Below, piece after piece: positions 10,975 to 37,800 of a stretch of DNA of 64,000 nucleotides. The position numbers and the translations under genes were made by a program. The stretch is taken from positions 157,096 to 221,095 of the IMG/VR virus record IMGVR_UViG_3300045999_010033; one strand, written 5' to 3'. Below the pieces are notes generated by a model that was not told the DNA's origin, ran no database searches, and saw only the letters and a program-made list of their open reading frames with translations. The stretch comes from a virus. The first letter of the stretch is position 1. Every line of letters starts with the position of its first letter.

Positions 10975-12609
10975 TTAGAGAGTATGTAGACCCTCAACCA
11001 CAATCTTGCCATAGAATTCCGGACGGACTATCTTCTTAGCGTATCTCGTCATAACTCCACGACGTGGTGTGAAGTTAGTCGGGTCATACACAAGCGGAGT
11101 CATAATCAAAGGCACATATGGTGCGTAGACAGCTCCAGTTTCGAAGAAGTTAGAACCTTTGAAACCAAGAAGGATAACGTTCTCAGTCATGTATGGGTTT
11201 TTGTAAACATCATACCTGTTAGAGATTGAACCTACATTGGTTACACCAGCTGCAAATTGAAGAGCATCTTTACCAGGGTTAGCTGAGAAGCCATTCATTG
11301 ATTCGAGGATAGTACATACATCCGGGCTAGCCACGATGAAGTTTGCACCACCACGCATTGTCAACTGATGGATTTTGTTTGATACCTTTTGAAGTTTGAT
11401 ACCAAGTGTTTGATACCAAGTGTTCTTTTGGTAAGCGTTTGCAGATATAGTAGCAGAATCAGGTGCGAAAAGACCGGTTGTTGAATTGTAGTCGTATCCT
11501 ACTCTTGCAGACCAGTAATCAGTAGTCAATGCGTTAGCCTGAAGCATCTCAAGAATTTCCAAATCAATCTCAAGAGAGATGTATTCAGAAAGCATCTGAG
11601 TCAATTCAGCTTCTGCGTCGATACTGTGGTATGCGTTAAGGTCTTGCGCCAATTCAGGAGTCCAAACTGCTTTCAACTTACGAGTTTTAGCAACGATTGG
11701 TTCTGATTTGAGTTCAAGCTCAATTTCAGGAATACCAACATCAGCACCAGTTCTATCTTCAAAATCACCTCTTGAAGTAGCGGTTGGTTGTTTGTGATAA
11801 GATACTGTTGCAGTTGCACCATCGGAAAGGAATGCAGCAGTAGATCCAGTTACAAAGAATTCAACAAAGTTTCCGTTGATATTTGTGTATTGTGGATATA
11901 GTGTGACAGAGCCAGATGTAAGTACAAACGCTCTAACACCATTGAAATCCATTTCGGAAAGAATTGATGAAGATACTGCTACCTTCTTAATACCACCTGC
12001 TGCAACGGATGCTGAAAGTGCGTTTGAATAATCGGTATCTGCCCAAGATGCACTTGTTACAGTTACTCCTGCACCTATACTTCCTGTACCGATTGTTACA
12101 CTAACATCGTTGATGGAATATCCGAAACGACCAGGGCCATAAAGACCTTCTTCTGCTACTTGAGTAGAACCAAGTTTGTTACCTGCAGGTGAAAGAGAAT
12201 CTTTACCAACGGTACCACCTTTACCGAACATTGAAGAACCAGAGAATGCTGGCTTACCTGCTTGGTCGGTTGAATACTTGAAGTCCATGTAGAAGATAAG
12301 ACCTGAAGGTAAGTTCATCGGCTGTACAGAAACGAATTCTTTTGCAGCGATGCTACCAAAGATACGTCTTACAAGCGGAAGAGCTACACCTGCCCATTCT
12401 TCAGAACCAGCTGCGAAGCCAGTCTTTGTTGCTTCATCAAGAAGCTGCTTAGCTTGGTTTTCAAGCAATACTGCCATACCATGCTTTTGTGATTCAGAAC
12501 CTGCTCCTTCAAGAAGGCCTGTTTTTTCCCATTTGGATTTCAAACCCCTAGTTTGCTCAAGCATAATGCTTTGCGGGTTTGCACCATTCATTAATTTTTT
12601 TAAGTCCAT
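10975..12609 (-). CDS. Major capsid protein, gp23-like
   Basis: 544 residues from MDLKKLMNGANPQSIMLEQ. I use this ATG rather than the longer frame from 12678 because the longer one runs into the scaffold gene, and this start has a clean A-rich leader (repeated CAAAA). T4 gp23 features are clear: an LKSKWEKTGLLEG helix, an ENQ-containing segment, then LLDE59-A60, which corresponds to the gp23 maturation site, then LVRRIFGSIAAKEFVSVQPM, matching the conserved gp23 VQPM segment. The first 59 residues are therefore expected to be removed by the prohead protease. It forms the capsid shell. Confidence 0.93.
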   Translation of the reverse strand: MDLKKLMNGANPQSIMLEQTRGLKSKWEKTGLLEGAGSESQKHGMAVLLENQAKQLLDEATKTGFAAGSEEWAGVALPLVRRIFGSIAAKEFVSVQPMNLPSGLIFYMDFKYSTDQAGKPAFSGSSMFGKGGTVGKDSLSPAGNKLGSTQVAEEGLYGPGRFGYSINDVSVTIGTGSIGAGVTVTSASWADTDYSNALSASVAAGGIKKVAVSSSILSEMDFNGVRAFVLTSGSVTLYPQYTNINGNFVEFFVTGSTAAFLSDGATATVSYHKQPTATSRGDFEDRTGADVGIPEIELELKSEPIVAKTRKLKAVWTPELAQDLNAYHSIDAEAELTQMLSEYISLEIDLEILEMLQANALTTDYWSARVGYDYNSTTGLFAPDSATISANAYQKNTWYQTLGIKLQKVSNKIHQLTMRGGANFIVASPDVCTILESMNGFSANPGKDALQFAAGVTNVGSISNRYDVYKNPYMTENVILLGFKGSNFFETGAVYAPYVPLIMTPLVYDPTNFTPRRGVMTRYAKKIVRPEFYGKIVVEGLHTL

Positions 12610-12628
12610 TTTGTTTTGTTTTGTTTTA

Positions 12629-13777
12629 TTACTTAATAATACCAGCCAACTTCTTAAATCTATTTGCGAAGTCAGCATTTTCAGAAATTACTTGCTTTTG
12701 TTGAGCAGCGGTAGGTTTTGTTGATTTAACCGCTCTACTTGCAATACCTTCAGCGATAGCCTTTTTAGCAACTTTAGATACTGATGTGTACTTAAAGTTT
12801 TCTGCCAATGTAGAATATACTAATTTGACTTCTCTAACTGATTTTGTTCTATCCAAAGTTTCGATAACTTTAACCTTTTGCTCGTTGGTCATGTTATGTG
12901 CTCTGAACAATTTGTTTGCGAAAAGAAGTTTAGCGTTTAGAAGATTTACTTCATTGATAGTGCCCTGAAGTGATTTGATTGCCTTGTATGCTTGGTTAAG
13001 TTCGGATTTCAACTTTTTGTTTTCTTCCACTTTCTTTTCCATTTCATCATCATCTGCATCGGTCATATCAGCTTCCATTTCACGAAGAATTTCTTCTAAG
13101 TCAATGGTATCATCATCTTTTGCAGTATCATCTTCATCTTCTTCACTAACAACTACTTTTGGGTCTTCACCTTTATCGGTGCCGGCCTCTTCACCATCGG
13201 CTAGGGATTCCATAGCCATCTGGTCATCATCTTCATCTTCAGTTGATTCTTCTTCTGCGAGTGATGATTCCAATTCTCTAATGATTGATTCAAGATCCAT
13301 ATCATCTTCATCATCATACGCTTCTTCTTCATCTCCGGTGATTTCGTATTCCTCATCATTATCGGAATCAGTGTCATCGTCACCGAAATCCATATCATCG
13401 TCGCCGAAATCCATATCATCGGTATCATCTGTGTCTTCTTCTTCAGTAAGATCTTTTACTTTAGAATAGTCATCAAGTTCAGAACCGGGTTCGCCGGATT
13501 CGGTTTCAGTAGAACCACCTTCGAATTCGGTATCGGCATCATAACCCGAAGGTTCTTTCATGTCACCTGCACCGATTTCAGATGAATCTAATTCCTCGGT
13601 CTTCATTTCTTCTTCATCATCGCTCATTTCGGCTTCTGCTCTCAATTTTTGAGATAGAATTGATTGGAGGCGTGGAGTGAAGGCTTCTTCAAGAGCGAGT
13701 TTAGCATTTGCCAAAGCAGTTTCTTTAACGGCTTTAGCATCAGCAATTGCTTGCTTTAACAATTTTGAATTTGCCAT
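12629..13777 (-). CDS. Prohead scaffold (core) protein, gp22-like
   Basis: A 382-residue, strongly acidic protein. Residues ~50-230 are long runs of Asp/Glu/Ser, followed by a helical region (KKVEENKKLKSELNQAYKA) and a C-terminal RFKKLAGIIK. An acidic helical scaffold directly upstream of the capsid gene is the T4 gp22 arrangement. T4 gp22 is shorter (268 residues); the excess is the acidic repeat region. It should fill the prohead and be degraded by the protease before packaging. Confidence 0.85.
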   Translation of the reverse strand: MANSKLLKQAIADAKAVKETALANAKLALEEAFTPRLQSILSQKLRAEAEMSDDEEEMKTEELDSSEIGAGDMKEPSGYDADTEFEGGSTETESGEPGSELDDYSKVKDLTEEEDTDDTDDMDFGDDDMDFGDDDTDSDNDEEYEITGDEEEAYDDEDDMDLESIIRELESSLAEEESTEDEDDDQMAMESLADGEEAGTDKGEDPKVVVSEEDEDDTAKDDDTIDLEEILREMEADMTDADDDEMEKKVEENKKLKSELNQAYKAIKSLQGTINEVNLLNAKLLFANKLFRAHNMTNEQKVKVIETLDRTKSVREVKLVYSTLAENFKYTSVSKVAKKAIAEGIASRAVKSTKPTAAQQKQVISENADFANRFKKLAGIIK

Positions 13778-16982: not shown

Positions 16983-17573
16983 TTAGTTCAATTCAACAAT
17001 TATTTCACGCATTAGGTCTTGTGCTTTACACCACTTACCACATTCGTCTGCAATTTTCTGCCATTGCTTACTCTCATTCATTGGTGCCATAAATGCTCCA
17101 TGCGTAGACGGGTTCGATACGAAGTCCCAGCCAACCAATTCGAAGTCGTCTTGCACCATTACCGTGCCATCCCTTTGCTCATTAACTGAACCAAGTCCAC
17201 GTGAACTAATACCAAGACGTATATTATTTTTAAGCAATTCTTTTAAGATATTGCCCGATGGTGTTGAAAGAATTTCTACCACTCCACAAACATCATCCCC
17301 TTCCCACCATATTTCACGAATATTGTGTGATACATTTTTAAGCTCGATTACTGGAGAATCCGGATGGTCTAATTCACCAAGTGCACGTCTTTCCTTAATC
17401 AATTGCTTATATTTTTCACACTCACGCTCTAATATCTCTTTTGGATAACGGCGATTGTTTTGATTGGGTGCACCTGCTCTTTGCAAAACGCCTTTAACAA
17501 GAAAAGTACCATTAGATTCTTCTTTGAGTTTTGCTTCGAATAGGTGGGTTTCTATTAATAGTTTTTTATTCAT
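16983..17573 (-). CDS. Prohead core protease, gp21-like
   Basis: 196 residues. The U9/S77-type protease features are clear: RRYPKEILERE, a GELDHPDSP block with the catalytic His, an SSRGLGS block with the catalytic Ser, and a FELVGWDFVSNPSTHGAF block near the end. It matures the capsid by cutting scaffold, capsid protein and internal proteins after Glu in an (L/I)-x-E context. It lies among the genes carrying that leader. Its own N-terminus has HLFE-A, a possible self-cleavage site. Confidence 0.93.
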   Translation of the reverse strand: MNKKLLIETHLFEAKLKEESNGTFLVKGVLQRAGAPNQNNRRYPKEILERECEKYKQLIKERRALGELDHPDSPVIELKNVSHNIREIWWEGDDVCGVVEILSTPSGNILKELLKNNIRLGISSRGLGSVNEQRDGTVMVQDDFELVGWDFVSNPSTHGAFMAPMNESKQWQKIADECGKWCKAQDLMREIIVELN

Positions 17574-19087: not shown

Positions 19088-20836
19088 TTATTTAACAGCA
19101 GATTTGGTATCTGTTAGTATTATTTTTTTACCACCAAGCATATCTTTGTATATTTCTTTATAACTTACTTTACGTGGTTTGTATTTTACAGAACCTTCTT
19201 TTTGTTTTAGAGTTTTAATCCCAAGTGGGTCGCGACCAAGTGGATGATCATCTTTACCATATCTAACCGGGTCTTTTGGTCTTCCAACTTTTCCTTCTTC
19301 TTCTAATTCATCTTTAATTTTTTGAATTTCTTCTTCAACATTGGTTGGTTCTTCTGTTCCGGTTTCTTTAGCAGGATCAGTTCCTTGTGTTTCAATTTGT
19401 GTCAATCTGAACGCTTGCTTTGTATCTTCCAATACATCAATTGTCATGTCATCTTGTTCATCTTGCGCAAATTTCATAATATTTTCATACATCCACTTTT
19501 TAGAAAACAATTTTGTTTGTTGCATAGATTGTATAAGAGATACCTTTGATGTATATAATTCTATTTGCTCTTGCTCATATATTTTTGATGGAATAGTAAG
19601 TTCTAATTGAAAATCCAAATCTGCCGCGTTATCCATACCCTGCGCATATAAATGAACTATTGCTATCTTTGTCAATTCGGAAATAAGAACTTTTTGTATT
19701 CTTTCGATGGTTTTGGCGAACCTTACATCTTGCGCTGCCAATGTTGCTTTTCCGTTTACATCTTCTTCATATCCCAAATGTGATTTTGGAATTTTAAGAG
19801 CTGCGAACATTTTTCCTTTTAGGTAGTTGATATCATCTATTGCCTGATATTCCATGCCCTTCAAAGTATCTATGCTCGTACCACTATCGCTACCGCGGAC
19901 AGGAAGATAATAATCCTCAATAATATTTTGAATATTATATTTAAGATTGTAATCTCCGGTTTTTTCATCTACAAATGGTGTTTTTTTACTGCTGTTAATG
20001 ATTCGTTGCATATAATTATCAACTTCAGTTGGTGGTATATTACCAACATCAACTTTGAATATACGTTTTTCGGGAGCACGCATAATACGATGTATTAACA
20101 TAGCATCCTCCATAAGAGTTAGTTGTTTCCAAACCCGTCTTGCACCTTCTATCATTGATTTTCCATAAGGAAGAAAATTAGAATCAGAATGCATTCTGAA
20201 ATGCGCAATTTCATAATTTTCATATTCTTTTTTATTAGAAGCAGAAGACCCTCCGTATGGGTTTGTGTATGGTGCATATACAAACTTTACACGTTGTGGA
20301 TTTTCTATATCAAAGTTTTCAACACGTGTAACTTCATATACCGATATGGGAATTACATTAACAATTCCAAGTTCAGGTGCTACTTCTAATTGTAAAAAGA
20401 AATCACCATACTTTACCAAGTTTCTTGTCCAAGGCCAAAGTGTGAATTCTATGTTTACAATATCATAAAATAAGTTATGAAGAATTTGTTTTACATTTTC
20501 ATCTGAACAATGTATTTTCAGTACATCTCCATGTTCATTTTTTGTTGTACTTTCATCTGCGTAAATATCTAATGCCGCAGCAAGAATAGGGTCATGATCC
20601 ATTGAATCATAATCTCTAAATAGGTCAGCACGAACTTGCTGATACGACATTGCCGATTCCAACATTCCACCACTATATTGTGGGGTCTTCAATTTCATAA
20701 AACGGTCTACAAGGTTAGTCGTCATTGATTGATATTCATCAGTATCAATGACCCTTACGCCCTTTTTAGTTCTACGAATAATTGTGTTTGTAGAAAATAG
20801 TTTTTGTAACCTTCCAAAAATGGTTTTATCTGCCAT
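19088..20836 (-). CDS. Portal protein, gp20-like
   Basis: 582 residues. The layout fits T4 gp20: an N-terminal RRADLFRDYDSMDHDP-like segment (here QVRADLFRDYDSMDHDPILA), a WPWTRNLVKYGDFFLQLEV segment in the wing/stem region, and a C-terminal KIPKSHLGYEEDVNGKATLA block, followed by an acidic and Lys-rich tail. It forms the ring at one vertex through which DNA is packaged and leaves. The upstream gene ends 29 bases away. Confidence 0.9.
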   Translation of the reverse strand: MADKTIFGRLQKLFSTNTIIRRTKKGVRVIDTDEYQSMTTNLVDRFMKLKTPQYSGGMLESAMSYQQVRADLFRDYDSMDHDPILAAALDIYADESTTKNEHGDVLKIHCSDENVKQILHNLFYDIVNIEFTLWPWTRNLVKYGDFFLQLEVAPELGIVNVIPISVYEVTRVENFDIENPQRVKFVYAPYTNPYGGSSASNKKEYENYEIAHFRMHSDSNFLPYGKSMIEGARRVWKQLTLMEDAMLIHRIMRAPEKRIFKVDVGNIPPTEVDNYMQRIINSSKKTPFVDEKTGDYNLKYNIQNIIEDYYLPVRGSDSGTSIDTLKGMEYQAIDDINYLKGKMFAALKIPKSHLGYEEDVNGKATLAAQDVRFAKTIERIQKVLISELTKIAIVHLYAQGMDNAADLDFQLELTIPSKIYEQEQIELYTSKVSLIQSMQQTKLFSKKWMYENIMKFAQDEQDDMTIDVLEDTKQAFRLTQIETQGTDPAKETGTEEPTNVEEEIQKIKDELEEEGKVGRPKDPVRYGKDDHPLGRDPLGIKTLKQKEGSVKYKPRKVSYKEIYKDMLGGKKIILTDTKSAVK

Positions 20837-21976: not shown

Positions 21977-22618
21977 TTAGTTTACGGATTTAGATTTAGT
22001 ATCACGACCCGCCTGTCGGGCTTTTCTACCTGCACAGTGTGCTTTTTGGCTGAATCCTTTGGGGTTATCGCAATCAATTGATTTTTTGTAGCCTTTTGTC
22101 CATTTTTCATTTAGTCGGTTTTCGTGCTTTATGATTAACTCACCCAATACTTCTATTAGTCCGACCAATCTTTGAAACCCGATTTGGTCCATTTGAACTT
22201 TACCACCACATATTTCTTCCATATAACCATTAAATTCTTCACGAGCATCTTCTAAATTAAAACCGCCTTCGGCTGCTTTTTTATAGTGTGGAAGTTTTAC
22301 AACAAAATGATGATAGGTAAGAATTGCTACTCCACCCTTTTCTTTTGCATCTTTAGTTATTTTAGTAGCACCTTCTAATCTTTTCTTTGCAAAATCTTCA
22401 AAACTTTCTATTTTTGGAGAGTTTGATTTAACTAGATTTGCGGAAGTTTTTTTCTTTTCATCACCATAGGATTTACCCATAGCCTGCCCAGCGGTAGTTT
22501 CTCTTCCAGCTATCGTCACTTTTGTAGATGGACGTATATCATGCTGCTTTGCATAAGCATCAAATTCGGCTTGAGATTTAAATTCTAATTCGTTCAATAT
22601 ATCTTTAAGTCTAATCAT
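21977..22618 (-). CDS. Leader-bearing head protein with Cys-rich basic C-terminus
   Basis: 213 residues from MIRLKDILNELEF. A 19-residue N-terminal extension from an upstream start was rejected because this ATG carries the shared leader and starts right after the upstream stop. The middle is helical; the C-terminus is SIDCDNPKGFSQKAHCAGRK, a module seen repeatedly in T4-like marine phages. An additional LNE-K site precedes that module. Likely packaged in the head. Confidence 0.65.
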   Translation of the reverse strand: MIRLKDILNELEFKSQAEFDAYAKQHDIRPSTKVTIAGRETTAGQAMGKSYGDEKKKTSANLVKSNSPKIESFEDFAKKRLEGATKITKDAKEKGGVAILTYHHFVVKLPHYKKAAEGGFNLEDAREEFNGYMEEICGGKVQMDQIGFQRLVGLIEVLGELIIKHENRLNEKWTKGYKKSIDCDNPKGFSQKAHCAGRKARQAGRDTKSKSVN

Positions 22619-22619
22619 T

Positions 22620-22859
22620 TTATTTAATGGCTTTACCAAACTCTTGTGAAAAGTCCGTATCTTGTGATAAATCAATTGTTTGAACTCGGCACTTTTTACA
22701 TTCGTGTTTTTGTGTAAGTATTTCTATTACTTGTTTAGCTTCACTCATTGATTTAGCTTTTGTAAAAAGTATTTGTTCATCCTTTTTGCCAGGAGGAACA
22801 CCCCAAATAATATATTCAGTTTTAGTGGTTTCTTTTAATATATCTTTAAGTCTAATCAT
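22620..22859 (-). CDS. Small leader-bearing protein
   Basis: 79 residues: leader MIRLKDILKE followed by TEYIIWGVPPGKKDEQILFT, a beta-alpha module, and a CKKCRVQTIDL strand. It is almost identical at the N-terminus to its neighbour downstream. The body looks like a single small domain. Predicted to be cut after Glu10 and packaged; domain function unknown. Confidence 0.65.
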   Translation of the reverse strand: MIRLKDILKETTKTEYIIWGVPPGKKDEQILFTKAKSMSEAKQVIEILTQKHECKKCRVQTIDLSQDTDFSQEFGKAIK

Positions 22860-23200
22860 GTCGGCGGATTATATTTTTTATCACTTCCCTTTTTATCCCA
22901 ACTAACTCTTACTGGCTTTTTACCTTTACTGCCATCACCTTTATCGCCACGTCCTGCTTTGTTTTGTTTTGCACGTTTACGTCTTACGAAACTTGCTCTA
23001 CCTTTTTTTCCAAGCTTTTTTGCCGCTGCCGATGAAAGACATGCCGCATATGCTTCACCTTCTTCGCCGGCTCCACACTTTCCAACACGTTTACCACTGG
23101 AATCATATCTATCCCAGCCACCACCTCCTTTACCTCCCCATTTGCCCTTTCCGAACCACTTACGGAGGTCTTCGTCTAAAAGGTCAAATAGTTTAATCAT
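22856..23200 (-). CDS. Small basic leader-bearing protein, DUF5872-like
   Basis: 114 residues. Leader MIKLFDLLDE is followed by a Gly/Lys-rich stretch (GKGKWGGKGGGGWDRYDSSG), a KCGAGEEGEAYAACL segment and a C-terminal ASFVRRKRAKQNKAGRGDKG. The strongly basic body suggests DNA binding in the capsid. It overlaps the downstream gene by four bases and the upstream one by one base. Confidence 0.7.
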   Translation of the reverse strand: MIKLFDLLDEDLRKWFGKGKWGGKGGGGWDRYDSSGKRVGKCGAGEEGEAYAACLSSAAAKKLGKKGRASFVRRKRAKQNKAGRGDKGDGSKGKKPVRVSWDKKGSDKKYNPPT

Positions 23201-23523
23201 TAGAATACGGAATTGATTTGAGATGAAACCTCTTTACCATACTTTGATTGACATTGTTTCATCAATTCATTATAGATATTTGTTCTCAAATCTATAAGCT
23301 CTTTTGGAGTATGTCCAAACTCTTTCTGCATATCCAACATACTATTCAAAATGTTTTCAAATGCTCCCATTTTCATAAATTTGGCGAACTCAAGTACCGC
23401 TTCGGTATGCGCATTTCTATCGGTTAATTTTTCTATCTTTTTAACGATAGGGTCTACATTGATCGCTTCTTTTAATCCGGTAACTACCTTTGTTTCTGAT
23501 AGTATATTAGTTAGTTTAATCAT
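23200..23523 (-). CDS. Leader-bearing helical head protein
   Basis: 107 residues. Leader MIKLTNILSE is followed by a second possible site GLKE-A at about residue 19, then an all-helical body. It is the first gene of the leader-bearing group downstream of the terminase and has its own promoter-like motif. Function unknown. Confidence 0.65.
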   Translation of the reverse strand: MIKLTNILSETKVVTGLKEAINVDPIVKKIEKLTDRNAHTEAVLEFAKFMKMGAFENILNSMLDMQKEFGHTPKELIDLRTNIYNELMKQCQSKYGKEVSSQINSVF

Positions 23524-23562: not shown

Positions 23563-25167
23563 TTATCCTAATAACCATCTTATATCTTCAATCTCTCCGT
23601 TATTTCCATAAGAAATTTCATATGGGTTATTTTGTAAGTGGTTTTTAGTATAAACACTTTCGTATTGTTGTATTTTAGCCGAACTTAACATAGACTTTGT
23701 AAGGTCTACTCCTTCATTTCTAAGCCTCAATGCAGTATTTCTAACCCACAGTCCTATCGCCATAGCCATTGTCAAGTCATCGTTGTAGCCCTTCATTGCT
23801 TCCGCTCTACCATTAAACCAAATAAATGTAAATAATTCTTCTATCATACGAGAAGACCGTATTAATATCTCTTTTTCTCTAAGATACGTATCTAATGCAG
23901 AAATAATAAGTGGTCGCGTCCTTTGTGTTACCGAAAATCCAGCAACCATCTTGCGTTCCTCACGATAATATTTGTTGGTCATTTGCCTTTCTACATCAAT
24001 GTATTTCAAGTCATTACTCATGTAAAATAGATTACCATATCCACGATTAATGATTTGTTGTATGGCGGCCCAACCTACGTTTGAGTTTTCCACAACTAAT
24101 AGGGCATTATTGTATTCGGTAGCAAGTGAAACTAATAGGTTTCCAAAATCTTTTGTATTGATTTTACCACGATATTCTGCAACTTGTGAGCAATTATCTA
24201 AATCTATAACTTGTGCAGTTGAAAAGTCATTTGAATCACCACGTGAAACGTCCGCAGCAACCATATAGTTTCTTGTATAATCCGGATGTTCCCATCTCCA
24301 TAGGTTTCCATCGAAACCAGTTTTTTCAATTGGATCGATTACCCAAGTTTGCTTATACCACATTAGAAGTTGTGGGTCTATCACAGTATCACCGGAACTT
24401 ACAAAATCACAATCACACTCTTGCGCAGCTCCTTTTACACCAAGAACACGTGTTTGATCATCTCTCCACGTTTGATTTCTTTCAGGGTGCTCTGTCCAAT
24501 GAAGCATTATATTATTGAATCCATTTATTCCACTTTCTCCATCTACCCACATTTTATGAAACCAATTACCAACACCATTTGGAGTTGATAGTACAATAGC
24601 AGAACCACCAGTTGAAAGTGTAGATTGCGCCGATAGCCAAATTTCATCAATATCTCTAATGAACGCTGCCTCATCAATTACAAGCAATGATAGGGCTTCA
24701 GAACGTCCTGCATCAGGAGATGATGTGATTGCTTTAACTTGCGAACCATTTTTTAGTTTAAGAGATAATTTATTATCTTCAACTGATGCGGATGAGCCAT
24801 CTCTCAACCAAATTGGCAAAAGATCGTGCATCACTCTTACTTTTTCTACAAGGTTTTTTGCAACTGTTACTTTTGTAGCAATAACAAGTGCGTTAAAATC
24901 CGCATTGAATATCATTTTCCATAAAATAAATCCTGCGGATAACGTGGATAATCCAAGTTGTCTACTCTTTAAAATTATATTATAACGATTATCTTTAAAA
25001 TCAGTAATACATTTTTCTTGAAATGGAAAAAGGTGAAATGGAATTTTACCACGAGTAGGGTGCTGAATGACACAATACTTTTTCATAAAGTATATTGGGT
25101 CTAATGCACATTTTTTATACTCATCGGCAATTAGGTCTTTCAGGCTTCTATTTGGATTTATTGGCAT
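23563..25167 (-). CDS. Terminase large subunit, gp17-like
   Basis: 534 residues. The ATPase half has a Walker A-type KSRQLGLST (residues 67-75) and Walker B LLVIDEAAF (161-169), and LSTPNGVGNWF as the coupling motif region. The nuclease half has MVAADVSRGDSNDFS (near 312) with the first catalytic Asp and later acidic residues. It packages DNA through the portal and cuts concatemers. The ATG is preceded by A-rich sequence with no Shine-Dalgarno element. The small terminase is not recognisable nearby. Confidence 0.93.
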   Translation of the reverse strand: MPINPNRSLKDLIADEYKKCALDPIYFMKKYCVIQHPTRGKIPFHLFPFQEKCITDFKDNRYNIILKSRQLGLSTLSAGFILWKMIFNADFNALVIATKVTVAKNLVEKVRVMHDLLPIWLRDGSSASVEDNKLSLKLKNGSQVKAITSSPDAGRSEALSLLVIDEAAFIRDIDEIWLSAQSTLSTGGSAIVLSTPNGVGNWFHKMWVDGESGINGFNNIMLHWTEHPERNQTWRDDQTRVLGVKGAAQECDCDFVSSGDTVIDPQLLMWYKQTWVIDPIEKTGFDGNLWRWEHPDYTRNYMVAADVSRGDSNDFSTAQVIDLDNCSQVAEYRGKINTKDFGNLLVSLATEYNNALLVVENSNVGWAAIQQIINRGYGNLFYMSNDLKYIDVERQMTNKYYREERKMVAGFSVTQRTRPLIISALDTYLREKEILIRSSRMIEELFTFIWFNGRAEAMKGYNDDLTMAMAIGLWVRNTALRLRNEGVDLTKSMLSSAKIQQYESVYTKNHLQNNPYEISYGNNGEIEDIRWLLG

Positions 25168-26504: not shown

Positions 26505-29500
26505 TTATTCATAAAATATTCCTAAAAGCTGATTTAATGGAGCGAATGTGCCTGTAAGTTTATAAGTCTTTCCGTTATAAACAAATACAATACCTTCTGC
26601 TGCTACTATTTTATCTACCCCACCCAATGAGTTTAATCTTTCTAATTCGTTTTTGAATTTTTTAATTATAGATGTGTCTCCGGTTTGTTTTACTTTTTGT
26701 GCAACTGAATCCAATTTCGTTTTCATAGCACGAATGGCAGTATCGGGGTGCACAGTTATTACTGATGTTACAAATTGTAAAACTTCAGAACCTACTCCCA
26801 AAAATATTTCTTCAAACGGTTTTATATTATCACGTTGTTGTTTTGGAACATTTATCTTATCGTGCTCTATTGTCCAATTTTGCAATGTTTTATCTGATAT
26901 TGTATTTAACCTAAAAGATTTTTCTCCAAATCCCCATCTGCGGATTAGTGCTTCTTTTGTAAGTTTATCGGGCTTAACGGGTGATTGCTTATCTATAAAA
27001 TCTGCCCACCATGCGTAGTGATAATCCGAAACGGAAGCAGAATCAGAAAGTCCAAATTTAGATTGTAGTTTGTTTAATTTTCCAAACCAATATCCTTGCT
27101 TCGATGAAAGCTCTTTACTTTTTGGAAGTTCTAAAACCGGAGGACCTGCTATCGTATATTTGGATTGCACATTTGCGTTGATTTGTTTTATCATGCCTGC
27201 CAATACTCTTGCGCTAGATTGGTCGGCGCTTATTGCCTTACCCGCATCATCATAACACACCGTTCCATGAAATACTAATAATGCCTGTCCGTATGGTATT
27301 ACGTTTACTGATTCTGGCCATATAACTTCAAGATTCATAAAACATTTCCCATTATTAAATATCTTTTCTTTTTGTTTTTCTGAAAGCCCACCTATTGCGG
27401 CGTTAAGGTCTTTCATTGCAAAATTATACGCATCGGTTAATCCACCACGACCTGCAAATTTAGATGCTACATCTTCTATACCCATTGCGTTTGCTCCTGC
27501 ATTTGCAAGATGTCCTTTGTTACGTGCGGCAATCAATCTTCCATTCTTCCAACTTATTGCCAAAGCCTGTCCGTCGGTTTTTTCACGAGCCAATTCCAAA
27601 CGACCACTTAGTGCGCCAGATATAATACGTTTAAGGTCACCAAACGTAAGCCCCATATCATCAAATGGATGTGACATGTGTCCATACGCACCACCTTCTT
27701 GTAATAGAGAAACTATACGATGCTCATATCCTCTTTCACGAATTACATCAACCGGTCTAATTGCCTTTGGTTTTACATATACATCTGGATAAGAGTATGG
27801 GTTTGGTCTTGAATTAAATGGATACATTTCCCATTTATCTGCTTTATCTTTTGCATATGCATCTCCTTTAGATGGATGAATTGTACGTTTAGCAGGTCCG
27901 TTTTCCTCTCTTGGATTATTAACCGGTATATTTTTTGCTGCCTTTTTAGCATCACGTTTTGAACTATATTCTAATACATCATATCCTACTATTTCAGCGT
28001 GCTTTTTTCCATATTTATCGTGCTTTTCCCAATCAGGAGAATATGGAGATCTGAAACTTTCCCCATTACTTGTCCCATCTACTACGGCTTCATTTACAAA
28101 ATTCTTTTTATTGAATTTAGTTGGTTTAAAATCAGTACGTGGTAAGTTCTTAACACGCCAAATTACATATGGTTGGTCTTGCTCATCATCACCGAATATA
28201 GTATCCGCAGTTGGGAAATCAATTTGAATATATCCGCCATTAGTAAACCACTCATCGGATTTATTTATACCATCATTGTTACCCAATTTTCTTTTATATC
28301 CTTTTGGTAAAAACATACCATCGGGTTGGTCATCATTAAATGCACCCTGAATACTTGTTGCTTCGTTTATAATTCCCTCTTGGAATATCTTTTTATTAAT
28401 CTTACCATATTCACGCATTAGTATTCCGGCCACCGCATGGGCTTTATTTTCAACAGAAGAGCCAGTCTTACCATCCTCTGCCCTATCTTTAATAATGCCC
28501 ATTTCATCTTGCTTACGATGTACCATTTCATGCGCAATCGTTCTTAAAATATCGGCAGTTAGGCGACCTTCGGTTGAAACGAATATTTCTTTTGTATTAT
28601 CATCGTATCCACCAAGAGATGTTTGTGATTCTGCGAACTCACCACCACCTACTAAATTGATTTTAGGTCTTTCATTTAGTTTCAATCGCTTTGTAGCATA
28701 TTCAACGAAATGATTTATTGATTCGGTTTTACTATCCAATGCATCTTCGGTTTCTCCGGTTTCGGGATTGTGATGTGAAAACGTTTTGTGCCAAATTTTA
28801 GATTTTTCTATTGCCCTTGCAGGATTAAGTTTATCTATTTTTTGTTGTGGTGATAATCTTCTATTAAACATTCCGGTAGCAGGAACATAATGTTCTTCAT
28901 TCAATAAATCTGCTGCGTTTCTTTTTGGTTCTTCTTTTTTATAACTTTTTATAGATTGTAATAATTGCGCATCGGTTAATTTGTATGTTTCTACACGTTT
29001 AATAACTTTTTCTAAAAAGTTTATTATAAATTTATTGTTACCATCTTGGGTTGATGAAATTTCGAACAAACCCATTGTTGCAGTAGATAGTGCCGCACCA
29101 CCACCCGCTGCTTGCGCACCACCAAATCCCAATGTTTCAAGTGCAGCATGCTTCACAATATCTTTTCCCAAATGAATACCAAACCCACCAAATCCATGTG
29201 TAAAAACACCAACTGAACCTTGTGCTGCTGCACTTGCAACTCCTAACGCACCTTGACCAGCGCTAACCGCTTTGGCCGCCGCTACACCTGCGCCACCTAA
29301 CATCATAGACCCCATTAACAATCCAACATCAATTGCAAAATGTTTGACATGATGTAATTGTTCTTTTCGTTTTTCATCGGAATAATCCCACTTTCCGGTT
29401 TGCTTATTTTTTACAGAACCAATCTTTTGTCCATTAGCCAATGCTTTAACTGCATCAACAGTTCCACCAATCATTTCTTTTTTGTGATGCGCCCACTTTT

Positions 29501-30800
29501 TTATTCCTTTACCAAAACCTTTAATGGCAGATTTTAATCTGGTCATCATTCCTTTTCTCTCCGGTGATTGTGGATTATTTATTTGTTCTATTGTTTTAGT
29601 TTCTTCATCAGATAACTTACTTTTTTCCGAATCCAATTGAGTTTTAATTTCTTCTTTTTCTTTTTCTGATTCCGGCTTTTCGGCATTTGTTTTAAAATCA
29701 GAACCTGATAGTTTATTAGGGTCTTCAGTTGGCTCTTCTGCTCCTGTCGTTTTTGGCTCTGAATCACTTGTGGGCTTTTCTGAAGCCGGTTTCTTTTCTT
29801 GATTGGTAGAGGCAGATGGTTCTTCTTTTGATGATGTCTTTTTATCTTTGCCAGTAAGCTTTTCTGCCTCTACGTGAGCTGGATGATCTTTGGCTAATCT
29901 AAGAGCTGCTCTTACTTTTATTTTTTTCTTTTCTCCTGCGGCGTTTGTATATTCAATTTCTTTATCCATTATAGGATTTTCCGATTCTGCCTCACCTAAA
30001 TAATTTGAAATAAAATCATTAAATATATCTTCGGCGGCAGCTCTTTCTATAATTGAAAAAATTGGATTGTATAATTCTGTCTCATCAATTGTTCTAAATG
30101 TAGTTGCCTGCTTTCCGTTTATGGTTGGCATTCCATGAGAATCTGATGATATATCTTTTACTTTCACCTTTTTGTTTTTGAATTTACCCATAAGAACGTT
30201 ATCTCCGACATCAACTCCTACTTTAATATTTTCACCGATTAATCGTTTTCTAATTAGGTCAAAAATACCTTTATCAAATTTTGAATATACTTTTTTAAAG
30301 TATTCTATGGCAGTTTTTTCATCTGCGCCACCAATATTTTTTCTTACATCAGTTCCACTAATTGCTTCTGCTTGTGGCGGCACTAAATACGTGTATCCAA
30401 TTTCTTTATAACCATAGCCCGCTTTACCACGATATGGTTTAAAATATGAACCACCTAATCTTTCTGCATCTTTTTCTCCAACTGCTGCAACGTATTGTGT
30501 AGTATCGGCATCAAACTTACTTAATATTTCAACTGGATTGTATGGATTTTTAACCATAACAAATCTATTAGCTGGAATATCAAACATTGTAGTTGCTATC
30601 TTTTTCTTTTCTTTAAAGTTAAAAGGAGATTTAGGTTGGGAAGTCGTATTTGAAGACCCAATGAAAACGTTACCAGCACCAAACTTACTAACTAAATTTT
30701 TATATGCTGCATAATGCCCTTTGTGGAATGGTTGAAATCTACCACTATATACTACTATTGTTTTTTTTACTTTTGGTTTATCTACTTCTGTTATATTCAT
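26505..30800 (-). CDS. Polyprotein: NMNAT-like, metalloprotease-like and ligase-like domains
   Basis: 1431 residues. Domain 1 (1-190): GRFQPFHKGHY (HxGH at 26-29) and ISGTDVR (148-153), nucleotidyltransferase motifs of NMN adenylyltransferases. Residues 191-270: a small beta domain (VGDNVLMGKFKNKKV). Residues 271-630: a Glu/Lys-rich linker and a Gly/Ala-rich hydrophobic stretch (~487-580), perhaps membrane-active. Residues 640-813: a metalloprotease-like domain with AHEMVH (HExxH at 757-761). Residues 1036-1431: a ligase-type nucleotidyltransferase with KTDG (1074-1077), RNKG, EGIV (1402-1405) and KTYKLTG. (L/I/V)-x-E sites E190, E270, E635, E813, E904 and E1035 lie at the domain boundaries. 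It probably is prohead cargo cut into separate enzymes. Its activities are inferred from motifs. Confidence 0.8.
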   Translation of the reverse strand: MNITEVDKPKVKKTIVVYSGRFQPFHKGHYAAYKNLVSKFGAGNVFIGSSNTTSQPKSPFNFKEKKKIATTMFDIPANRFVMVKNPYNPVEILSKFDADTTQYVAAVGEKDAERLGGSYFKPYRGKAGYGYKEIGYTYLVPPQAEAISGTDVRKNIGGADEKTAIEYFKKVYSKFDKGIFDLIRKRLIGENIKVGVDVGDNVLMGKFKNKKVKVKDISSDSHGMPTINGKQATTFRTIDETELYNPIFSIIERAAAEDIFNDFISNYLGEAESENPIMDKEIEYTNAAGEKKKIKVRAALRLAKDHPAHVEAEKLTGKDKKTSSKEEPSASTNQEKKPASEKPTSDSEPKTTGAEEPTEDPNKLSGSDFKTNAEKPESEKEKEEIKTQLDSEKSKLSDEETKTIEQINNPQSPERKGMMTRLKSAIKGFGKGIKKWAHHKKEMIGGTVDAVKALANGQKIGSVKNKQTGKWDYSDEKRKEQLHHVKHFAIDVGLLMGSMMLGGAGVAAAKAVSAGQGALGVASAAAQGSVGVFTHGFGGFGIHLGKDIVKHAALETLGFGGAQAAGGGAALSTATMGLFEISSTQDGNNKFIINFLEKVIKRVETYKLTDAQLLQSIKSYKKEEPKRNAADLLNEEHYVPATGMFNRRLSPQQKIDKLNPARAIEKSKIWHKTFSHHNPETGETEDALDSKTESINHFVEYATKRLKLNERPKINLVGGGEFAESQTSLGGYDDNTKEIFVSTEGRLTADILRTIAHEMVHRKQDEMGIIKDRAEDGKTGSSVENKAHAVAGILMREYGKINKKIFQEGIINEATSIQGAFNDDQPDGMFLPKGYKRKLGNNDGINKSDEWFTNGGYIQIDFPTADTIFGDDEQDQPYVIWRVKNLPRTDFKPTKFNKKNFVNEAVVDGTSNGESFRSPYSPDWEKHDKYGKKHAEIVGYDVLEYSSKRDAKKAAKNIPVNNPREENGPAKRTIHPSKGDAYAKDKADKWEMYPFNSRPNPYSYPDVYVKPKAIRPVDVIRERGYEHRIVSLLQEGGAYGHMSHPFDDMGLTFGDLKRIISGALSGRLELAREKTDGQALAISWKNGRLIAARNKGHLANAGANAMGIEDVASKFAGRGGLTDAYNFAMKDLNAAIGGLSEKQKEKIFNNGKCFMNLEVIWPESVNVIPYGQALLVFHGTVCYDDAGKAISADQSSARVLAGMIKQINANVQSKYTIAGPPVLELPKSKELSSKQGYWFGKLNKLQSKFGLSDSASVSDYHYAWWADFIDKQSPVKPDKLTKEALIRRWGFGEKSFRLNTISDKTLQNWTIEHDKINVPKQQRDNIKPFEEIFLGVGSEVLQFVTSVITVHPDTAIRAMKTKLDSVAQKVKQTGDTSIIKKFKNELERLNSLGGVDKIVAAEGIVFVYNGKTYKLTGTFAPLNQLLGIFYE

Positions 30801-30803
30801 ATT

Positions 30804-30813
30804 AATAAATATC
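30804..30813 (-). promoter_or_regulatory. Late promoter-like motif just upstream of polyprotein
   Basis: Reads GATATTTATT, only three bases before the ATG at 30800. If used, the mRNA would be nearly leaderless. Confidence 0.45.
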
Positions 30814-30871
30814 TTTTTTTATTGAAATATTATTATTACTATTTTTTTAATCGAACATACGAAATTTTTTT

Positions 30872-33800
30872 CTAATTACCAATTTTATTTTGTAACTCTT
30901 CTACTTTTTGAGTAAGTTCTTGTACAGCTTTCCATAAAACAAATACTAAATCGGATGTACTAATATTATCTATCTTTCCATCCATTACACCAACAAATTC
31001 TGGTAAGCCAATATCATGTAGTTCTTCGGCTATAATACCAATCATTTTCGCATCTCCATCGGATTGAGATTTAAAATTATATTCACGTATAGGTAATTCG
31101 TTAACCATAGATAATACAGATTTATCCCAATTTTTAATATTTTTTTTATATTTTTTACTAGATGTTCTCCTAACAATGTATCCAGTATCTGCTCCATTTT
31201 GAACCCATTGTACATCAACAAATGGATTCACTCCCGGTGATGAAACATCGGATGTTCTTAACATATTAGGTAAAAACAATGTTGGTCTAGTACTTTTGTG
31301 AGTTAATATTCCGATGTTTGCAGTTCCCCATGATATTGTGTTATCAACTGCAATTGATGAATAATTTGCTACTGCTCCTGCCGGCAAAATTATTTTTCCA
31401 TCGTTTAATCTTATATTTCCTTTTTGTATTACTAATGCATCTTTATTGGCATCATCAACCGTGTGTATAACCTTCCCGGCAATTCTAGCTGATACCAAAT
31501 CAGAACCGTCAGTATCATCTCTTTTTATTCTGAAATATTTGTTTTCATTTTTCAACATCTGAAACCCATCATTTGTTAATTCTATTAAATCAATTTCAGA
31601 TGTTGCAGTAAAATTGGCGTTATCCCAAATTGTTGAATTTATGTTTATACTCGGCTCTTGTGTTGTATTATTATTAGACCAAAAAGGACCGGATATAGTA
31701 TAAAAAGTATATAATGTATACACGTTATTCGGTGGGGTCGCAGTTGGAAAAGTTAATAATACATTTGAAGCAAATGTATTATCTATGGATACTACTTGGT
31801 TTGATCCAGATACAGTTACACCATTTCCAAATAGAGTAAAAATTGGTATATCGGCCGAATCTCTTATTTGAATTCCCCTATCAAAGCTTACATATCCTTC
31901 AAACGTATCGTTTGTTTCTATTAAAGGATTGCCAATGGAATCCCATCCAATTGTTAAATAGTAAGTTAGAGCACCATTGGGATTAATTGTTATCGTATCA
32001 TACGTTGGTGAATAATTAAAAGTACCATCAAAATAGTCAGTACCGGTCTTAGTTTCACCTTGTATTGTTATAGCAGGTGTACTTCCACTAATTGTATTAG
32101 TATTCGCAGATATAGATGATAACTCGCCATAACGTATATCTACACGCTTTTTAGAATTTTCATCAAATAATCCAATTGAAGGTATTTTGGGATTTAATAC
32201 AATTTTACTAGAACTATCTCTCAAAGAATCCCTATCGATAATCCATCCAGCAATTCTACCATCAGTTGCTACAACACTTCCGGATATTGTTAAATTTGCT
32301 CCATCCCAAAGAAGTGCGTTACTACCATTACGAATTGACATCTTTGGACTACCACTATCGAATCCTAAAAATATTCCATCGGTATTGTACGCAGAAGCGC
32401 TTATTTTTATACTTGGATTTTTACGTGTAGGATGATCGGAATCTAAAGCAATGACAGGAGTTCCACCTTTTGCACCTATATTAATTGTTCGGTTTGCATA
32501 AACATCTTGAGCAAAAAGAATATCAGTTGCTACCGAATCAAATTGTGCACTAAAATTATCCCAACTAGCAGACCATTGAGAGCCAACACTATTTCCCGTA
32601 TTATCATCGGATGGACGTGTACCAATTGTTGATGTATGACTTACTGCGCATAAATAATATCTATCAATCAAACTTGAGCCATTCCAATATTTTCCCAATA
32701 CAACATCACGTCGGGTATCGGTTCTATAATAATCGGTACTTGCCGACCATTCACCCCTATACACTACTCCTGGTCCGGTTTGTCCTACTTTACCTTCATT
32801 GAGTCTAAAAACTGTAGCGTATCTCTCAATGCCATCGGCAGACGCAGTATATGTTATACTACCAACCTTATATCCAGTTAATGACCCCGAAAAACTTTGC
32901 GATGTTAATATATAAAGTCCATCGTTAATTTTATTTAAAGTACCGGGGTATGGTGTTAGATTTTTTGGTATAAGACTTCCGGTATCATCATATGCAGATG
33001 AATAAAATGTTATAGAGCCGGTAATAGCAATTGGCTTTACTATAAAATTTATAAGATTAGGAAACGCTAAAGTACCGGATGCGTTAAATGCAAATGAATT
33101 ATTTGTTAATGTTAATTCTATGTCCTTTCCTGCCACTATATCATTACCACCTACAAATGTAAATGATTGCCTTAAATCTATTGGAACAAAATTATTGTTT
33201 ATATCGTAAAATTCAAACTTAAATTCAAACTTTTCGTTTGATATTTTATTTGGAACATTTACATTTAGTGTAACTTCGTTTGGAGAAAATGATGTTTCGG
33301 AAGCTGTAGATAATGATACATCTGTCAATTGCCAAACACCTGATTTAACTACAAAGAAAAGCCTACCACCACCAGTTTTATCTGCTTTAAAATTAATTTG
33401 TTGCTTATCAAATCTCCTAAAATTGGTGGGGGTTGTTATTGTAGTTAAACGCTTTCCATATCCAAAGTTAATATCGGTATCTACAAAAGAAGACCCGGTC
33501 ATATACACTTCTAAATTTCCGTAGTTTGCAACGGATGATGATAGTAATGGTGTAAAATCTAATTGATATTCAGTGCCCTCTGTAAAATTAATTGATTCGG
33601 ATGTAGCAAAATAAATCAATCCATTTGTGGTATTACTATCAGTTTGTGGAATTAATTTTACTGATTTATTTAAATACGTATCATCTACTTGCCAATCCGA
33701 TGGTGTGCTGATTGATCCAGTTATCCAAAACGCATCCAATATAGGGTCAGTAAATATTCCTTTTCTTACATTTAATGATGAAGAAAATGTTTCGGCAATT

Positions 33801-34859: not shown

Positions 34860-37800
34860 TTATCCACGTATTGAACTATATCCACCTATCTTTTTAATCT
34901 CGACAATGCCATCAACCATATCTCTCATTTGGTCAAGGTGTGAAATAATCCAAATAAAATCAAATTGAGTTTTTAGATATTGCATCATCATAAATAGGGA
35001 TGAGATGTTATCTGAATCCAATGTGCCAAACCCTTCATCAATTACGAGGAAGTTGGGTCTAGGAAGGTTGCATATGTTAATTAGAGCCACTCTAATTGCC
35101 AATCCACTAATAAACTTCTCCATACCACTCGACATTTCAAGAGCCCATTCTTGGTCATCGTAAACGATTCTAGCGTTAATGTTCTTACCATCCACATTCA
35201 TAACGATATTGAAATCCACAACCTGTCCAAGAATGTTATTAACTTCACTTTCTATTATTGGTAAGGCTTTAGATATTAATTCATATGGTATGCCATCTTT
35301 TTTAACGGCATCCAAATAGCACTCATATAAATGATATTTATCTTCCAAATCTTTTACTTCTTTTATCTTTGCTCTACAACTATCTATATAAGATTTTATT
35401 GTTGCCATCTTTGAAGTTAGAGATGATAGTTCACTATTTTTTACCTTAATGATTTTATCCAATTCGGTATTGGTTTCTTCTAATGCAGAAAGTTTAATTT
35501 CAATTTCTTTGTTTTGCTTTATAGTTTCTTCATTTGCATAGTATCTCTTTATACTATCACTAATAGTTTCCAATTGATGATTATATAGCTCATTTTTAGT
35601 TTTCAAAGTTTTAATCTCTTCTTGAACTTTTTCTATAAATGAAAGTAGTTTGTTATATTTTAATTTATTTTCATTTAAGGTATTCCAAATCGTTTCTACA
35701 TCTTTTATGGATTCATATTTCAATTTTAACTCTTCGATTGTATTCAATTTCGATTGTAAATCGGATTCCTCTTTATCCACTTTTTCTTTTGTAGAAATTG
35801 CATCTTTTACAAAAACATTATTTATACAATATTTACAATTTGGGTCATACTCGTGCTTTTCTAAATGAGAAAGCTTTTCCTTATTTAGTTTTATTGATTG
35901 CTTCAATAATTGTATGTTGTGGTTTAGTGTAACAATTTGATTCTTACACGAATCCAATTCATCTTTAGCATCACTTATACTTACTCCATTTATAGTTTGT
36001 GTTTCGTTTATGGTATTAAGTAACGCCTCTGATAAATAATTCAAATCGTTTAACTGCTTTTGTTTAGCACCACTTTCCGTGTCTAACGATTCCAATGCGG
36101 ATAATATATCCTTCTTTTTAGAAATTAATTTATCAATATCATAAACCACATCAACTTTTGCTAATTGTTTATTCAATGATATTATAGATTCTATTACATT
36201 ATCTTTTTTATTAATAGTTTCTGAAATTAATGATTCTAATTCTGAAATTAAAGTTTGGGTTTGCCCCACTTCTAATATTTTATCATTTAATTCAGATGTG
36301 AAATCAGTTCTTTTGAAATTTTTAATTAGAGCACTTACCTCTTTTATTTCATCCGAAGCCGCTTCATGTAATTTATCAAATACATTTAATCCCATAAATT
36401 GAGCAAGTAACTCTTTCCTTTCCGATTGAGATTTATCAATGAATAGGGCGTTGTTTCCTTGCAAAGAAAGAGATGTCAATACAAAATCTTCATAACGTCC
36501 AACGTATTGTTCTATTATCAGATTAGTATCACGACGTTCTGTTCCATTAAGAGATTCGACTCGCCCATCTACAGTTCTCCAAAACTGAACATCTACTTTT
36601 ACATTTTTACCTTTGTTGACAGTGCGTGCTTCTCTACGAATTGAATATGATACACCATTTATTTCAAAATCCAGTTGACACCAAAACGTTGTTTTACGAT
36701 TGTTCATTATGTTGGTAGCCTTAAACGCTCGGCTACATTTATCGTATAGGCAAAATGATATGGAATCAAATAGAGATGATTTTCCTGATGCGTTTGGTGC
36801 AAACAATCCGGTCAATCCATTTATTTTTGTAAAATCAATTTTATTATCTTCACCATATGAAAACATATTACTAAACTCAAAACGAATTGGTTTCCAAAAT
36901 ATATTACGTTGAACATCATCGGTTGATATCCTTCCATTTATTTCGGTGTTTATTGTTTCTATTTTGCGTAAATCACCATCTGTTAGATGTGGAAGCATAC
37001 GATTTAGATAATCGTTTATTAATGAGTTTTGATAATTGATATCACTTACATCATCAAAATCCAATTTAGAGCTTCTATTGCCGGTCTTTACTTTTGAAAT
37101 TGAATCGGTGCGGATAATACTAAAATCTTTTATTTTGTATTTCCTTTTTATTTCCATTACTACTTTTTTAGTAGTAGCAGAATCGGTATTGGAAAGCTTT
37201 ACACGTAGATGCGCATACTTTGGCATATCTAACACATTTGGTACAATACCATTATCAACATTTAGAGTATAATATCCATAATCATTTTGGATATCAATTG
37301 CTTCATAGGTTAAGGTATCCAAATCCCAAACAAGAAACCCATGACCACTTACACTTTCTCCAAAGTTTTGTTGTACAAGAGAACCGGCGTAAACTGCTTT
37401 ACAACCACTTGATGAAATCAACTCTTGCCTTTTATGGATATCGCCCAATAGAGCAATGTCATACCCATCAAACATATCAACCGTGAAATGACGAGATGAA
37501 ACTACATATCCAACATCGGTTTGAGAATGATCAACTGGTCCATGAAATAATGCAATCTTTATTTTTGTATCAATATCATCTGCTTTGGGCCAATTATCTT
37601 TATTATCAAAGATACTGAATACACCAAATCCAACTCCACCATAACTCCAAACTTGTGTATCTTTTAAATAATAAAAGTTTGGCAGGTTAAGTGCATCTAC
37701 CATTGGTGTCAAAACATCAAGCCTATCGGTGTTGTTCATATTACAATCATGATTACCTGCGATAAGAATTGTTGGGCAATGTTTTGTACATTCGGTGAAT

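Follow-up and report, generated by a model that had tools for sequence, protein, structure and literature searches.

The stretch of viral DNA analysed here (the window) is 64,000 nucleotides long and covers positions 157,096 to 221,095 of record IMGVR_UViG_3300045999_010033. Within the head-gene cluster of a T4-like phage, its minus strand carries an open reading frame (ORF) of 1431 residues, the first 200 of which are encoded at positions 30201–30800. This polyprotein opens with a domain that resembles nicotinamide mononucleotide adenylyltransferase (NMNAT), continues with a variable middle and closes with a ligase-like domain. Sites of the type cut by the T4 prohead protease gp21 lie at the junctions of both end domains, and the cluster encodes a protease of that type. 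An earlier note on this DNA had proposed that the NMNAT-like domain is packaged and supplies nicotinamide adenine dinucleotide (NAD) on entry, either to rebuild NAD or to feed an NAD-using ligase-like domain in the same precursor. Comparative evidence from the S77 protease, the head cluster, the junction sites and short N-terminal tags strongly favours packaging; a supply of NAD on entry is not supported.

The NMNAT-like and ligase-like ends are firmly linked. Both lie in a single ORF, as had been proposed, in 114 complete ORFs of the first locus set (68 at <90% identity, with the window's duplicate locus L005 excluded); the searches retained the best 80 of 143, the best 80 of 221 and the best 80 of 304 confirmed relatives. 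Counted with redundancy, 146 ORFs bear the ligase and have a closed 5´ end; the NMNAT-like domain shares the ORF in 137 of them and lies elsewhere in the same locus in 9. The complete two-domain ORFs span 644 to 1844 residues between stops. Both ends can be aligned throughout, whereas the modules lined up between them recur in differing places from protein to protein. In a homologue from a huge phage (L002:7587-10334), a ParB_N-like stretch precedes the NMNAT-like domain (PF02195, E = 4e-4, below the cut-off). The start of the window's polyprotein is preceded by an AT-rich leader (30780–30880) with no obvious Shine-Dalgarno sequence. A cellular origin was considered and rejected: among 34 candidate stretches, the genome_contigs set gave 3 confirmed relatives, which all lie in contigs of metagenome-assembled genomes and are probably binned phage. 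The protein of LR756508 had no relatives in viral contigs.

The NMNAT motifs lie where the earlier note had placed them, and matches of the domain to PF01467, PHROG 395 and NMNAT structures are beyond chance. Residues G20–P24, H26, G28, H29, S148–T150 and R153 do not vary in any of the 35 aligned sequences, of which the window's is one; the motifs of NadM (GRFQPFHxGH and ISxTxxR) are present, with HxGH and SGTxxR in all 35. The domain scores 25.3 bits against PF01467 (CTP_transf_like; cut-off 21, E = 1.9e-5), which places it in the HIGH superfamily, and 29.7 bits against TIGR00125 (cut-off 27.7), and it matches the cytidyltransferase family PHROG 395 at E = 1.2e-14. Against solved structures, a profile of the 35 sequences finds archaeal and Francisella NMNATs of the NadM type (E = 3.6e-7 and 4.5e-7) ahead of phosphopantetheine adenylyltransferase (PPAT; 0.016), with the middle of the domain poorly covered by these alignments. 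NadM-type models also rank first in NCBIfam for the window and match all 35 members (2.8e-8 versus 0.068 for CoaD). The window domain falls under every NMNAT equivalog cut-off listed (33.4 bits versus 397; 27.8 versus 181.2) and is therefore not filed as NadM. Its AlphaFold model has the HIGH fold, with a predicted local distance difference test score (pLDDT) of 86 and a predicted template modelling score of 0.83. In structure comparison (VIA), NadM 2r5w (Z 12.7, 166 residues, 3.3 Å) and PPAT 3pxu (Z 12.3) are tied among the ranked entries, and families outside that ranking may match as well. A Pfam scan of the 1431-residue ORF gave no Nudix match. Judged from its sequence and model, the first domain appears to be a nucleotidyltransferase of NMNAT-like character whose active site is intact, and it is very likely active. 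The conversion of nicotinamide mononucleotide (NMN) and ATP to NAD+ is the likeliest single reaction, with chances that we place just short of even. The NMN-adenylyltransferase-like character put forward earlier holds; NMN as the substrate is uncertain, given the fold tie with PPAT and the missed equivalog cut-offs.

The C-terminal domain is called ligase-like on its motifs and on weak matches. All 26 aligned sequences, including the window's, contain K44-x-D-G, R-N-K, N126-x-E128, E372-G-x-V-F and K384-L-T-G (domain numbering). The K-x-D-G, N-x-E, E-G-x-V-F and K-L-T-G series, which we take to be motifs I, III, IV and V of the RNA/DNA ligase (covalent nucleotidyltransferase) superfamily, is present in order; the third and fourth ligase motifs are ~170 residues apart, and the intervening stretch is mostly helix. 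With the domain model (pLDDT 82.6), Foldseek ranks 1–17 are all RNA ligases, but at weak values (E 0.059 to 0.94), and VIA places RNA ligases and the DNA ligase of African swine fever virus first among the entries ranked, with Z at most 5.5. By the starts of the VIA-align ranges, K44 (K1074 of the polyprotein) falls at the nucleophile of the P. pacificus ligase (K92) and the Naegleria ligase (K170), as numbered in the entry titles, and also at that of T4 Rnl2. None of the 26 members matched a Pfam ligase family, PHROGs gave only an RNA-ligase family in 2 of the 26 (E 0.069), and hhalign to two RNA-ligase sets produced alignments that are centred on motif I but weak (E 0.0037 and 0.066, probability 9% and 0.8%). 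PDB sequence profiles did not serve to name the domain; the best match, ribosomal protein eS6 (E 0.0027), was taken as chance.

The T4 protease gp21 cuts after L/I-x-E, and short N-terminal tags bring T4 internal proteins into the core (PMC9026906). The N-terminus of the polyprotein, MNITE, can be compared with MELITE of T4 Alt and MKTYQEFIAEA of IPII and IPIII. In 66 proteins (the 68 minus L001 and L002), strict [LI]xE precedes the NMNAT-like core in 65 of 65 that could be tested (the domain start is missing in L137), follows the domain in 63 and stands as [LI]xEGG directly before the ligase-like domain in all 66. The relaxed form [LIVMF]xE occurs in 66/66 at each junction: before the NMNAT core, at most 12 residues from the domain end, and as xEGG before the ligase. 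Random 24-residue windows contain strict [LI]xE in 27% of cases in the middle, 1.8% in the NMNAT core and 7.9% in the ligase core, and an EGG-type motif is found in <0.1% of random 20-residue windows. The four-residue site [LI]xE[AGS] is rarer than expected in the NMNAT core (4 versus 9.9, standard deviation 3.3) and in the ligase core (15 versus 44.5, standard deviation 7.2), and commoner than expected in the middle (139 versus 93, standard deviation 9.2). Module ends lie at most 5 residues from [LIVMF]xE in 34.5% of cases, compared with 21.8% of random positions; for the four-residue site the values are 9.0% and 4.6%.

The middle is composed of exchangeable beads. The small bead that follows the NMNAT-like domain in the window varies in position among proteins and is chained with a zinc-peptidase-like bead in one cluster. 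An HExxH of the HEMVH type is present in 34 of 66 middles; Pfam support for the peptidase bead is weak, with DUF6782 (putative metallopeptidase) matching 2 of 66. Homologues of this bead stand alone in Synechococcus phages B23 and S-SRM01, and the separate-gene homologue B23 gp332 begins with MNYKQFLRES. The window's middle also contains a Gly/Ala-rich stretch (residues about 480–590) and a further bead (814–904). DUF5661 (PF18905) matches 23 of 66 middles, the window's not among them. When 64 proteins (the 66 minus L061 and L137) were compared in pairs, both ends were at least 80% identical in 326 pairs; the middles of 142 of these differ by at least 100 residues, and in 56 pairs the shared part is below 0.6 of the longer middle. 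A late protein encoded at window positions 20866–21975 has a TIKKVG..YPKKGG..RLGTH stretch that also occurs inside the polyprotein middles of some relatives, which may be another sign of bead exchange.

The genomic context is that of head assembly. Terminase (TerL), portal and a third cluster gene lie downstream on the same strand in each of the 42 loci that extend at least 5 kb in that direction. In loci with a split precursor, the ligase ORF stands alone and bears its own capsid-targeting-like tag (MIRLGKILNEVLLKEGG..., MKFLKSYEEFLNENLILEGG...). These tags are MIRLGKILNEVLLKEGGAYGH and variants in L018, L019, L023, L046 and L050, MKFLKSYEEFLNENLILEGGSYGH in L263 (also L003), and MKTLSEDLIKRFLKES in L194; L061, in which the gene is broken within the ligase domain, was excluded. 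In our judgement, the tagged ligases represent about three lineages of split. The gene that adjoins the stand-alone ligase-like gene of LR756500 (L003:9259-11220, same protein in L263) has its NMNAT-like domain at the C-terminus, and its N-terminal half contains an ENLDGSTVYV stretch of ligase-like look from which the lysine is absent. Against solved structures, this N-terminal part gave a single chance-level match (E 0.2).

Further small late genes in the window have tag-like starts too, namely MIRLKDLLKES, MIKLTNILSET and MIKLFDLLDED. The tag pattern is found in 6 of 21 head-region ORFs and 5 of 207 others; it was drawn up after examples had been seen, its p-value is exploratory, and two of the six (MTIEERLELFLEK and MHLFLILKEK) are doubtful. 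Candidate tags, and with them further candidate cargo, lie at window positions 15172–15588, 22856–23200, 23200–23523 and 21977–22675 (internal Met) and, in the window's genome (G000, 221,095 bases), at G000:2220-3044 and 77079-77789; besides the three starts given above, these six loci show MIRLKDILNEL, MIRLKDLLSET and MNLRSLLKES. In two T4-like cyanophages, S-SCSM1 ORF91 (annotated as NMNAT) and the S-CREM2 cytidylyltransferase were detected in virions by mass spectrometry (PMC9602691, PMC10665884), and S-CBWM1 and S-SZBM1 are named as further cases (PMC10665884). The S-SCSM1 and S-CREM2 proteins begin with MKSFLQFLKEAA and MKNFSSFLTEAD, like T4 internal proteins, and match the profile of the NMNAT-like domain at E 5e-7 and 9e-10 (eight-protein set).

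Table 1. Features of the polyprotein and its head-gene context in the window (a slash marks the presumed cut position)
Feature	Position	Strand	Remark
Polyprotein ORF, 1431 residues: NMNAT-like N-terminal domain, variable middle, ligase-like C-terminal domain	26505..30800	-	
Capsid-targeting-like N-terminus MNITE, predicted cut after E5	30786..30800	-	
NMNAT-like HIGH-superfamily nucleotidyltransferase domain, residues 13-187	30240..30764	-	
Motif GRFQPFHKGH, residues 20-29	30714..30743	-	
Motif ISGTDVR, residues 147-153	30342..30362	-	
Predicted cleavage site I-G-E, residues 188-190, just past the NMNAT-like domain	30231..30239	-	
Small recurring bead, residues 191-240, VGDNVLMGKFKNKK...GMPTINGKQATTFRTIDE	30081..30230	-	Core pattern in 63/66 middles
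Zinc-peptidase-like bead, residues 690-797, HEMVH at 757-761	28410..28733	-	
Predicted cleavage site I-N-E, residues 811-813	28362..28370	-	
Predicted cleavage site L-Q-E/GG, residues 1033-1035, abutting the ligase-like domain	27696..27704	-	
Ligase-like domain, residues 1036-1431; EKTDG with candidate nucleophile K1074; EGIVF; YKLTG	26508..27695	-	
Terminase large subunit	23563..25167	-	PHROG 2, E=9e-48
Portal protein	19088..20836	-	PHROG 213, E=1.6e-67
Prohead core protease, T4 gp21 type, presumed processing enzyme	16983..17573	-	PF03420 Peptidase_S77, E=3e-29
Major head protein, LLDE/ATKTG in N-terminal part	10975..12678	-	PHROG 138, E=9e-74

A second, more distant clade (L183–L262) has motifs of the GRFQPFGPHH/GLHH type in place of GRFQPFHKGH, and mostly EKLDG where the window's clade has EKTDG. 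G-x-H-H replaces H-x-G-H in 42 distant sequences (redundancy kept), and SGTxxR is mostly retained. Modules also stand ahead of the NMNAT-like domain in this clade. In 30 proteins at <90% identity, with the N-terminal site sought in the last 40 residues before the domain, [LIVMF]xE is found before the NMNAT-like domain in 25 of 26 testable proteins, after it in 30/30 and before the ligase in 29/30; the strict form follows the domain in 27 of 30.

These features would be explained by a capsid-delivered pair of enzymes that the head protease releases from a shared precursor and that work together shortly after entry, and we consider this the probable case. The NMNAT-like domain would be the leading bead of a capsid cargo polyprotein made late in infection, which the short N-terminal tag would carry into the prohead core and the phage's gp21-type protease would cut at L/I-x-E sites between beads. 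The freed NMNAT-like enzyme, the small middle modules and the RNA-ligase-like enzyme would then enter the cell with the DNA. In the cell, the HIGH-type adenylyltransferase, if active, and the ligase-like enzyme would share one task, most likely to repair or protect, at an early stage, RNA or other nucleic-acid ends that host defences attack. Packaging and processing of the polyprotein, as judged from comparative sequence analysis, are very likely. The analysis itself shows what the two domains are, their invariant active sites, the constant pairing of both ends, the junction sites and the location among head genes; that the protein is packaged, cut and injected, and what its substrate and shared task would be, is inferred.

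Several points weigh against it. Among 175 NMNAT-like ORFs whose 3´ end is closed there is one exception, in L017, where the fetched locus contains no ligase-like domain. The proteins are related, and the junction counts are non-independent events; the median distance from breakpoints to a four-residue site exceeds the random value (72 versus 63), and breakpoint support is mixed. Given the changed HxGH, the reaction may differ or be lost in the second clade, in which strict [LI]xE precedes the NMNAT-like domain in only 14 of 26 proteins. The ligase assignment draws on motifs and on the weak VIA and Foldseek matches, with no Pfam ligase family. Virion proteomics for this phage group was not found in the literature, and the authors who detected NMNAT-like proteins in cyanophage virions grant carry-over as possible (PMC9602691, PMC10665884). 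Such carry-over would also suit a protein made late that undergoes neither cutting nor injection, with L/I-x-E sequences that are chance or structural features and both enzymes acting in the cytoplasm in late infection; the site is short and, as given above, common in random windows of the middle. However, sites occupy three junctions in nearly all proteins and recur in the second clade, they are depleted in the enzyme cores, the genome encodes an S77 protease, and tags are carried by the split-off ligases and by homologous stand-alone proteins, so we regard this alternative as quite unlikely. The L017 ORF lies at L017:2-4552, and its 5´ end is open.

The synthesis of NAD+ on entry, to offset an NAD-depleting host defence, has in its favour that NadM is the nearest family by sequence and that packaging is plausible, and NAD synthesis by virion NMNAT-like proteins during infection has already been proposed for cyanophages (PMC9602691, PMC10665884). 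NAD-depleting defences, however, leave ADP-ribose and nicotinamide (PMC12774641). An NMNAT alone cannot rebuild NAD from these products because it requires NMN. Moreover, a NAPRTase-family protein encoded in the window's genome bears the Namat signature GSFTYQYNTRD, the same as in the Namat of SPbetaL1 (49.8% identity), and the gene beside it is 30% identical over 207 residues to the SPbetaL1 neighbour, which we take for Adps; from its sequence, the pair resembles a NARP1-like route to NAD that bypasses NMN and NMNAT. According to one survey, every NadM phage that it detected has NadV (PMC9503650). The NMNAT-like domain departs from this rule, and its constant companion is the ligase-like domain. 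Of 27 records that carry the polyprotein, whole or split, 1 has a NAPRTase-family gene; many of the 27 are fragments, but records of 190, 274 and 484 kb also lack one. Synthesis of NAD from NMN via the phage's own NadV was rejected as the main reading, since the gene has the Namat signature and the relatives' other 26 records have no member of the family. T4-type cargo copy numbers are small relative to the cellular NAD pool. In T4, 40 copies of Alt and 360–370 of the internal proteins are reported per head (PMC9026906). NAD+ synthesis on entry is accordingly unlikely to be the main role, and the rebuilding of NAD suggested in the earlier note is not borne out. In the same genome, the Namat and Adps-like PRS genes adjoin an RNA ligase gene (PF09414/PF21189; G000:27105-31145, equivalent to L166:7105-11145, minus strand), and second matches to RNA_ligase and PF01467 lie at G000:44902-45348 and G000:90925-91200.

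That all 146 ORFs with the ligase and a closed 5´ end are linked to the NMNAT-like domain would also suit an NMNAT that makes NAD+ for an NAD-dependent ligase in its own precursor. The ligase-like domain, however, gives no indication of NAD use. The 26 members gave a list of 11 families at E up to 10, in which the NAD-type adenylation domain PF01653 does not appear, and only ~38 residues separate the predicted cut from the motif-I lysine, fewer than the NMN-binding Ia domain of LigA needs. The structural matches that rank highest, RNA ligases and the viral DNA ligase named above, are ATP-type enzymes. The NAD-dependent ligase reading is therefore without support, and the corresponding idea of NAD feeding is highly improbable. 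A different specificity within the HIGH superfamily (e.g. phosphopantetheine-, flavin- or nucleic-acid-end-directed), with NMNAT as the nearest name only, is a possibility of more substance, although we hold it less likely than even. The VIA tie with PPAT, the missed equivalog cut-offs and the G-x-H-H of the second clade speak for it, as does the LR756500 homologue, which also scores above the Pfam cut-off for citrate lyase ligase. Against it, the profiles favour NadM over PPAT and CoaD by orders of magnitude, and HxGH and SGTxxR are intact across the alignment of the window's clade.

More broadly, the delivery of an enzyme pair may be one case of a modular system. In this tentative proposal, to which we give somewhat less than an even chance, at least two phage clades would use a delivery polyprotein with a fixed NadM-like adenylyltransferase, a fixed divergent ligase and exchangeable effector beads, all freed by the capsid protease and injected. 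Cargo would be gained by recombination at cleavage sites, with no new tag, and the enzymes would perform previously unknown nucleotide or RNA-end chemistry before phage gene expression. If this is true, a ready-made enzyme kit whose pieces are quickly traded is in the cell at time zero, and the recurrence of NMNAT-like proteins in cyanophage virions is explained. The tag together with L/I-x-E would then be a readable rule that predicts injected cargo in T4-like phages, and it would become testable which small late proteins are injected and what role the NadM-like enzyme has beside a ligase.

Three further ORFs of the window may be recorded. A 1047-residue ORF (34860–38003) fuses an SbcD-like phosphoesterase and an SbcC-like ATPase (PF00149 N-terminal; PHROG 77 and PHROG 100), a 1780-residue ORF (42793–48135) has no PHROG match at E 0.01, and positions 59096–59725 encode a polypeptide deformylase (PF01327, E=3e-20).

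For cyanophages, NMNAT-like proteins in virions and the proposal that they make NAD have already been published (PMC9602691, PMC10665884). The proteins concerned, S-SCSM1 ORF91 (QFG06348.1) and S-CREM2 gp154, are likewise HIGH-type nucleotidyltransferases with a T4-like tag at the N-terminus. They differ in being single proteins of 409 and 286 residues, with GRFNPPTVGH and GRYNPPHKGH and no multi-bead precursor; a profile of the ligase-like domain (A2), in a search without a positive control, found no ligase-like partner in the two genomes. Phage NadM (NMNAT-Nudix) and NARP pathways contain the nearest sequence family to the N-terminal domain, but here there is no Nudix match, a NAPRTase-family gene is rare among the records, and the gene is located among head genes. 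RNA ligases (Rnl1, Rnl2, Rnl3-like and Trl1) likewise have K-x-D-G followed by E-G-x-V-F and then a final motif that contains K; the present domain differs in its mostly helical insertion between the third and fourth motifs, its very weak scores and its lack of a Pfam family.

The apparently new element is a cleavable polyprotein in which the enzymes at both ends are fixed and the middle is exchangeable. A precursor of this kind, with sites for the phage's own prohead protease, was not found described in the literature searched, which left most subscription journals outside. The concept belongs with T4 internal proteins (PMC9026906) and polyvalent proteins (PMC5512222). T4 Alt, IPII and IPIII are alike in having a short N-terminal tag, a gp21 cut after L/I-x-E and a cargo ejected into the host (PMC9026906), but each T4 cargo has its own gene, whereas many beads share one precursor here. 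Polyvalent proteins are described as very long multidomain late proteins, often with a metallopeptidase, in phages with portal and terminase genes, and are predicted to enter the cell with the DNA (PMC5512222). The polyprotein likewise combines several unrelated domains in one phage protein with a packaging context. The pairing of NMNAT-like and ligase-like domains is not mentioned in the available text of that paper, in which release is attributed to embedded peptidases (PMC5512222); the sites of the present precursor fit a separate S77 prohead protease. Unlike polyvalent proteins, it keeps both ends fixed and exchanges the middle.

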